A stretch of 64,000 nt of DNA, from contig NZ_CP007440.1 in assembly GCF_001579845.1 (NCBI RefSeq), forward strand, positions 1,054,001 to 1,118,000. The letters run 5' to 3'. The stretch is from Rhodoplanes sp. Z2-YC6860 (GTDB lineage Bacteria > Pseudomonadota > Alphaproteobacteria > Rhizobiales > Xanthobacteraceae). Below the pieces are notes generated by a model. It searched no databases. It saw nothing but the letters and a program-made list of their open reading frames with translations, and had not been told where the DNA came from. Made by a program: the position numbers and the translations under genes. Every line of letters starts with the position of its first letter. Position 1 is the first letter of the stretch. Positions 22,684-23,498 of this stretch are shown here, piece by piece.

Positions 22684-22944
22684 CGGTTTACAAGCTTGTT
22701 GGACCGGGCATGCGCATCGTCGTTGTTGATCCTATGGTGCGAGCCTGCGGTTGTCACGGTTGCCAGCGTTTGATCTCGCATAGCGCGGGTCAGTGAGCAA
22801 AACGTCCTGCGGCTCAGCCGGTTGAGATGGCGTGCCACGCCGCATTTTTCGGTTTGCATTCCCGCAAATCACGTATAGACGCGAATTTGCCTCGTTCACT
22901 GAGGGCGTCATCTAGAGACGTCTATTTGGCGGAGCGGGGTGTGG

Positions 22945-23341
22945 CGCCTGCAGGCGTGGTTCGTAGCCGCGTCCCAGGGTGCGATGCCATCGTCCGTCCC
23001 CGATGAGGGGGCCGCCTTCAGTGGCAGGGCGCGATCGGGTGAAAGCGGGCGCAAATGCCCCCTGGAGCATGGTGGGTGAAAACCCAGCCGGTCCGATCGA
23101 ATCTCGAACGGTGGCCTCGCAATAAATCGCCACAAGTGGAGCGCCGGGAGGCGAGCGGGCCTGATCGCAAAGGCCCGCGGCACCTCTCGCAAAGGTGCCC
23201 CCAAGGTGCGCCGTCTCGGCGCTCCGCGCCCTCACTCATGTGAGGGGAAGGGAAAAGAGAGAGGCGCTGGCCCCGCGCCTGCTTTGAAGGGGCCGATGAA
23301 TCACGCCTGTATGGATGTTGATGGGATGCGCTTAGGAGCGC
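22945..23341. ncRNA. candidate structured RNA: run of tight hairpins, gene-free region
   Basis: The gap 22684-23563 holds no convincing gene. Within it I read successive hairpins: 22945-22956 palindrome; 23047-23060; 23073-23086 (TGGGT stem with GAAA tetraloop); 23111-23133; 23154-23179 (8 bp); 23179-23199 (7 bp); 23208-23222 (6 bp, 3-base loop); 23229-23246 (7 bp); 23262-23280 (6 bp); 23328-23341. Three consecutive loops (23116-23128, 23163-23170, 23186-23192) contain TCGCAA. This regularity suggests a folded RNA or a repeat-derived element. Strand is not decidable by eye, no promoter is clear, and short frames of about 100 residues across it look spurious. Confidence 0.4.
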
Positions 23342-23415
23342 GGGCTGTTTGACAATTGAATCGGAAAACTGGAGCCAAGCAATTTGGGTACGCGTCAACC
23401 CAAACAACCGGTGTC

Positions 23416-23438
23416 ATTGCCGGGCTCGACCCGGCAAT
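23416..23438. repeat. short palindromic repeat (CTCGA loop)
   Basis: ATTGCCGGG pairs with CCCGGCAAT around the loop CTCGA, a 9-bp perfect stem. Units of this form are a common type of dispersed intergenic palindrome in Bradyrhizobium-like genomes (from general knowledge). It lies between the hairpin-rich region and the small gene at 23564. Confidence 0.6.
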
Positions 23439-23498
23439 CCATGAGCGCGTTCAGCAAAGGCCGTCGTAAGAGCGTGCGTCGTTGCGTCACCGTATGGG

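Follow-up and report, generated by a model that had tools for sequence, protein, structure and literature searches.

The large ornate bacterial RNAs OLE, GOLLD and ROOL form homo-oligomers according to PMC12286853, in which palindrome switching in OLE and GOLLD is taken as evidence for symmetric intermolecular kissing loops, the rationale being that the neighbouring bases are unable to pair within one chain. The RNA described here lies in a stretch of 64,000 nucleotides from Rhodoplanes sp. Z2-YC6860 (the window, i.e. the whole stretch of DNA that was analysed) and resembles these RNAs (PMC12286853) in being large and structured and in possessing a symmetric loop that switches between palindrome types. 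It differs from them in having no match to Rfam models, in occurring as tens of dispersed chromosomal copies and in giving no phage or viral match in the searches described below; furthermore, OLE, GOLLD and ROOL are known to form oligomers, which for the RNA of the window are a prediction from its loop, whose sequence bears the hallmark of symmetric kissing. Retroviral dimer initiation hairpins are short, carry a palindrome in their loop and kiss before an extended duplex is formed: hairpin P2 of the present RNA is likewise short with a loop palindrome, but belongs to a bacterial chromosomal RNA of approximately 420 nt and occurs with several palindromes within one genome. The HEARO/omega RNAs of IscB- and IsrB-type systems are large, structured and present in dispersed copies, as is the RNA of the window; in contrast to them, the latter has no Rfam match. 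A linked gene for an RNA-guided nuclease would be expected of such RNAs; in a general survey of 172 loci of the window family, no neighbour protein recurred.

Among dispersed repeats, Br-REP1 and Br-REP2 of Bradyrhizobium are, according to PMC5082802, REP/BIME elements, i.e. single short palindromes of 20-40 nt. The window family shares with REP/BIME the dispersed intergenic occurrence of palindromic repeats in related bacteria, and a REP-like palindrome adjoins the window copy; its unit, in contrast, comprises approximately 420 nt with long-range helices and a promoter-like sequence of its own and is not a short single palindrome. The Rhizobiales-1 motif, a candidate structured RNA of Rhizobiales tabulated without Rfam number in PMC2864571, may be identical to or different from the RNA of the window.

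The earlier note had proposed a comparison with Rfam for the presumed structured RNA. At gathering scores, Rfam 15 gave no match in the whole window; the RNA was likewise without match in 20 and 4 relative loci. With relaxed thresholds (E up to 10), two weak matches were obtained in the window, both to the neighbouring REP palindrome; a relaxed search of the four relatives yielded one tRNA elsewhere and one chance-level match. 6S RNA (RF00013) did not match the element; the one separate 6S match was in locus L106, where it is located at 1002-1156 on the - strand, downstream on the same strand of an RNA copy starting at 1590. In the literature search, no title or abstract start described the RNA. 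It is a large folded RNA without match in Rfam 15.

Extent and distribution of the RNA family

The window copy is part of a larger unit on the + strand, in which a promoter-like sequence is followed by a folded RNA of approximately 420 nt:

22853-22881, + strand: TTTGCA-N17-TAGACG, a promoter-like sequence superimposed on an inverted repeat (TTTGC..GCAAA), from aligned copies and enrichment in 127 loci
22889 to about 23310 (22889-23310), + strand: structured RNA body, from the conservation profile, covariation and better folding of the + than of the - strand; 5' end placed at the putative transcription start, 3' end uncertain

The interval 22945-23341 marked in the earlier note has other limits than this unit: its left edge omits the best conserved domain and the promoter, and the RNA core ends at about 23310. 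In an alignment of 40 copies from the own genome, conservation starts at about 22850, climbs at 22890 and drops past about 23310-23365; the left flanks of these copies are unrelated, and REP-like palindromes recur on the right.

Compared with its own contig of 8,193,889 bases, the region 22900-23400 has at least 40 matches of 78-100% identity, itself included (best 40 of 90 candidates scored). R1, a covariance model built for the 5' domain (24 sequences, 91 positions, 25 pairs), gave at least 51 matches in the own genome with 150 of 8,410 candidates scored. A search of related genomes had been proposed in the earlier note, and homologues are present in many of them: in the family sample, R1 matched at least 139 of 248 genomes from 33 of 47 genera, figures that count the own genome and are based on no more than 17 scored candidates for each genome, and the copy number within this taxonomic family ranges from none to many. 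In the order sample, matches were rare (6 of 150 genomes including the own, the other five from three further families), and in the class sample the own genome was the only one with a match (1 of 289). A one-pattern scan of named genomes found at least 119 stretches; 73 of the 80 stretches listed match R1, and among those listed the matches derive from Pseudolabrys, Rhodoplanes, Pseudorhodoplanes, Afipia, Tardiphaga and several Rhizobiales/Hyphomicrobiales bins, as well as from a few bins labelled otherwise, one of them as Bdellovibrio. The RNA was not found in plasmid and phage records (the phage search and the second plasmid search were queried with the copy of one relative, L058), and a scan of viral contigs with one exact 24-base pattern gave no match. 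The element is a dispersed chromosomal family rather than a peculiarity of the window site. Two loci of the own genome, L074 and L076, contain short, strongly diverged family members whose central domain is unlike that of the main type.

The scattered occurrence raises the question of a non-autonomous mobile DNA element (MITE- or SINE-like) that would spread as a promoter-plus-RNA unit and whose transcript would serve its own copying or nothing. The 51 matches in one genome, the variation from no copy to many within the family and the position of copies at the ends of contigs, where recent repeats are expected to lie, are consistent with such an element, as are copies at unrelated sites that share the unit from the promoter to behind the 3' pseudoknot with unrelated flanks. 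This common unit was apparent in the genomes G004 (6 copies) and G156 (8 copies), some copies of which add the boxA-like site described below. Against it stand the long-term covariation, an orthologous site kept across three genomes, the aligned edges of filled sites, at which neither terminal repeats nor target duplications were seen by eye, and the negative searches of plasmids and phages. A purely mobile element is thus regarded as unlikely, and a mobile origin would be compatible with a cellular function. The window interval very probably belongs to a copy of a structured RNA gene family.

The orthologous site is an adenosine-kinase-like locus: three genomes (L055, L146, L183) carry RNAs there that are 77-87% identical and have the same loop, and a fourth genome (L254) has an RNA with another loop at this place. 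The names of the neighbouring proteins (adenosine kinase, solute-binding protein) are those that we presume from their sequences.

Overall fold and covariation

Folded as + strand RNA, 22889-23300 reaches -222.6 kcal/mol, which is 4.9 sd better than dinucleotide shuffles (0 of 100 shuffles as good), compared with 2.5 sd for the - strand; the hairpin richness described in the earlier note is thus real. RNAalifold calculations agreed in strand preference, with -324.7 on the + strand versus -277.8 on the - strand for 39 own copies, and -201 versus -175 for 36 diverse full-length copies (column-shuffled: -62.6, sd 6.1, 10 trials). In the latter set, 88.4% of the cells are paired in the predicted structure, and helices of at least 3 pairs show double-sided changes with pairing kept at 54 of their 98 pairs; in the 5' domain, double-sided changes occur at 11 of 25 pairs. 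The covariation spans genera. These homologues and compensatory changes, the latter having been suggested beforehand as a check, support the assignment to a structured non-coding RNA or an element making one.

The interval 22945-23341 had been regarded as gene-free. Mechanical open reading frames of 62-129 aa overlap it, and minus-strand calls of 86-161 aa recur within the own copies, while they are absent from the 20 relatives compared. Since the sequence changes follow the stems, the open reading frames overlapping the hairpin interval were judged to be probably spurious.

The individual helices were evaluated as the percentage of alignment cells paired relative to slid controls in 38 own and 36 diverse copies. 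The values listed are those of the diverse set unless stated otherwise; the slid controls of P1, P3, P4, P5 and the 3' closing helix amounted to 25-56%, those of the two TCGCAA-loop hairpins to 35-38%.

22889-22897/22932-22940, + strand: P1, enclosing P2; 98% paired, 6 double-change pairs
22941-22946/23128-23133, + strand: long-range helix P3, closing the variable central domain; 96% paired, slid controls 25%
22953-22959/22967-22973, + strand: hairpin P4; 85% paired, 6 double changes
22995-23001/23008-23014, + strand: hairpin P5; 89% paired, 6 double changes
23138-23146/23217-23225, + strand: closing helix GGAGCGCCG/CGGCGCTCC of the 3' domain (23138-23225); 98% paired, slid controls 31-39%
23155-23162/23171-23178, + strand: TCGCAA-loop hairpin 1; 100% paired in own and 74% in diverse copies, 7 double changes
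23179-23185/23193-23199, + strand: TCGCAA-loop hairpin 2; 69% paired in own and 59% in diverse copies, 5 double changes

Three hairpins with TCGCAA loops had been reported for the window. Two of them are real and conserved (74% and 59% paired in the diverse copies), but the third (23111-23115/23129-23133) was rejected: it is paired in 93% of the own and 55% of the diverse cells, the latter close to its slid controls (50% and 41%), and its 3' arm overlaps P3. We dropped the notion that the three loops represent a single repeated motif, because the loops are variable and the third hairpin is unconserved. In the own copies, 95% of 152 cells retain the GAAA-loop hairpin (23074-23077/23082-23085), which had also been pointed out before. 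The hairpin CCCTCAC/GTGAGGG (23229-23246) did not exceed its slid controls in the diverse copies (63% versus 72% and 52%). Among the eight copies of G156 (L240-L247), almost every one has a different version of a short hairpin of the central domain, and the preceding approximately 120 bases are near-identical in all eight.

The 3' end: pseudoknot, boxA-like site and REP palindrome

Behind the 3' domain, two further features were located:

23262-23294, + strand: 3' H-type pseudoknot with S1 (23262-23267/23275-23280) and S2 (23269-23274/23289-23294), from a motif search and pairing in own copies
23345-23362, + strand: boxA-like site CTGTTTGACAATTGAATC, present in part of the copies and two mismatches from the site in the own 16S leader

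The pseudoknot search, whose anchor motif was present in 96 of 160 matches, gave a score of at least 28 for 39 of 83 distinct copies versus 5 of 166 shuffles. Pairing in the own copies amounts to 94% for S1 and 91% for S2; in the MAFFT alignment of diverse copies, which appeared shifted in this region by eye, the values (S1 48%, S2 51%) were not above slid controls. S2 varies as a unit, the two strands being GGCCCC/GGGGCC, CCCG/CGGG, CCGGG/CCCGG, CCGCGC/GCGCGG or GCGCGG/CCGCGC. Loop 3 is often A-rich, a property that was a required criterion in one later search.

The site at 23345-23362, which we take to be boxA-like, follows the RNA in 53 of 139 loci (27 of 42 own, 26 of 97 others) versus 0 of 228 control windows. 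Its counterpart in the 16S leader of the own genome is situated some 237 nt upstream of the 16S gene, and this small distance of two mismatches is the likeness between the window unit and an rRNA operon leader; the 16S leader locus (L073), however, gave chance-level matches only with the RNA model, and no rRNA followed the copies in the Rfam scans made.

The boxA-like site would be the working end of a 5' leader, riboswitch-like or acting by antitermination, if the RNA controlled downstream genes. Its enrichment over the control windows and the start of an open reading frame shortly after the RNA in some relatives agree with such a role. On the other hand, the site is absent from 86 of 139 loci, and for 27 of 40 own copies the following gene call is on the other strand, as in the window, where it is on the - strand. 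A survey of 172 loci, which used heuristic gene calls, revealed no recurrent neighbour family beyond seemingly abundant ones (the largest cluster had 13 of 443 proteins), and this applies to downstream families as well. Leader function was dropped after this survey, which found no conserved same-strand downstream gene type, and is considered very improbable. Relatives of the neighbouring minus-strand protein were sought in viral contigs, and none was confirmed.

The REP-like palindrome at 23413-23443 has 35 genome matches with at most 2 mismatches, 12 of which lie near a boxA-like site that belongs to an RNA copy. Together with its position behind the RNA, this could suggest that the interval is a mere cluster of REP/BIME-type palindromes devoid of RNA function; however, 23 of the 35 sites have no listed boxA-like site next to them, and the long-range helices and the covariation across genera contradict such a cluster, which is hardly credible as an explanation. 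The gene for a structured RNA remains the preferred reading.

Promoter-like sequence and putative transcription start

The enrichment of promoters at a nearly fixed place in front of the RNA emerged from a comparison of 127 distinct stretches: 67 of them (53%) have a sigma-70-type score of at least 20 within 62 nt upstream, versus 1% of 508 control windows, and 39 of the 67 well-scoring loci have the end of the -10 box 6 nt ahead of the P1 start. About half of the 127 loci are without a good promoter score. In the own genome, two promoter subtypes precede the same RNA, and the window copy carries the poorer one; a simple promoter scan detected no + strand promoter at this copy. In alignment A1, P1 starts with G or A in 24 of 24 sequences, yet this does not hold for every later match (L096, L097). 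Based on the promoters and the covariation, we infer a transcript that starts with the first base of P1 or close to it.

Two loci deviate from this arrangement. L247 (G156:C2:44500-46700, RNA at about 1068) is without the promoter of its sister copies, and its likeness to them, judged by eye for this one copy, starts approximately at the expected transcript start, as that of an RNA-mediated copy would. L072 (G000:C1:568700-570900) has a promoter-like sequence of subtype 1 with a boxA-like site almost directly after it, and the RNA body is missing.

The palindromic loop of P2

Within P1, the P2 region (22904-22931) can adopt two predicted folds:

22904-22909/22917-22922, + strand: P2 fold 1 with palindromic loop; -9.1 kcal/mol, stem 99% paired
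22906-22909/22928-22931 plus 22913-22916/22921-22924, + strand: P2 fold 2; -8.5 kcal/mol
22911-22916, + strand: loop TCTAGA, a palindrome with the core CTAG (22912-22915) and the putative site of loop kissing; 125 of 126 contexts have a palindromic core here

The 192 5' domains collected yielded 126 distinct contexts in which a 7-nt loop was recognised, and these were counted with statistics that ignore relatedness: 125 of them have a self-complementary 4-nt core and 112 a 6-nt palindrome. The cores belong to five types (CTAG 48, CATG 34, CCGG 31, CGCG 7, TCGA 5), the sole exception being CCTG in L101. When the loop columns were shuffled among the sequences, 35.7 palindromic cores were obtained on average (sd 5.0; highest of 2,000 trials, 54). 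Outside the 126 contexts, loops of other length with a palindrome occur in L097, L099, L114 and L134, and failures in L098, L130, L143, L150 and L175. The palindrome types are spread over several genera, and several coexist within one genome (own genome, G001).

For the P2 region of the window, the predicted homodimer (-30.0 kcal/mol) is considerably more stable than the monomer (-9.1 kcal/mol). In isolation, the region is predicted to be bistable, with -9.1 and -8.5 kcal/mol for the two folds: the second one is supported in 50 of 95 contexts (53%) versus 22% in shuffled sequences, and its tip is paired in 98% of the own and 82% of the diverse cells. A pseudoknot between the P2 loop and the bases directly behind its stem was dropped on steric grounds, by reasoning only.

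Palindromes are also common protein and enzyme sites. Accordingly, the RNA gene might be real and the palindrome, instead of self-pairing, might pair with a different RNA or be a dyad site for a protein at the DNA level, and the alternative P2 fold indeed uses half of the palindrome. This fold, however, needs no palindrome, one DNA-binding protein would hardly read five different cores, and the loop sits on a conserved stem that is 99% paired; a role other than self-pairing therefore appears rather unlikely. That the P2 loop serves self-association is, judging from the sequence comparisons, likely.

Proposed function of the RNA

In the proposed mechanism, a sigma-70-type promoter would start transcription where P1 begins or close by, and the folded RNA would consist of the 5', the long-range central and the 3' domain together with the 3' pseudoknot. 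Through the palindrome in the loop of its first hairpin, two RNAs with the same loop would be able to kiss, possibly followed by an extended duplex, and because of this the working form would be a homodimer or a larger assembly. The alternative P2 fold would hide part of the palindrome, and dimerisation may therefore be switched. Dimerisation itself is suggested by the palindromes and the predicted energies. In combination, a multi-copy structured RNA gene whose loop serves self-association is probable. As to its activity, our guess is that the RNA is most likely trans-acting and serves a protein or an RNA as scaffold or decoy.

More tentatively, and with less than even confidence, the data may be read as a new class of large-RNA genes in a lineage of the Hyphomicrobiales, with about fifty copies on one chromosome, in which the palindromic loops would be address tags, paralogues with different palindromes would assemble into separate homodimers and a hairpin switch between monomer and dimer would be built in. 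Natural RNA homo-oligomers with evolutionary support are few, according to PMC12286853. If the proposed reading is true, the family would offer many natural variants of a pairing loop, several of them per cell, making RNA self-association testable by genetics, and it would add a large RNA class, unannotated by present libraries, in common soil and water bacteria.
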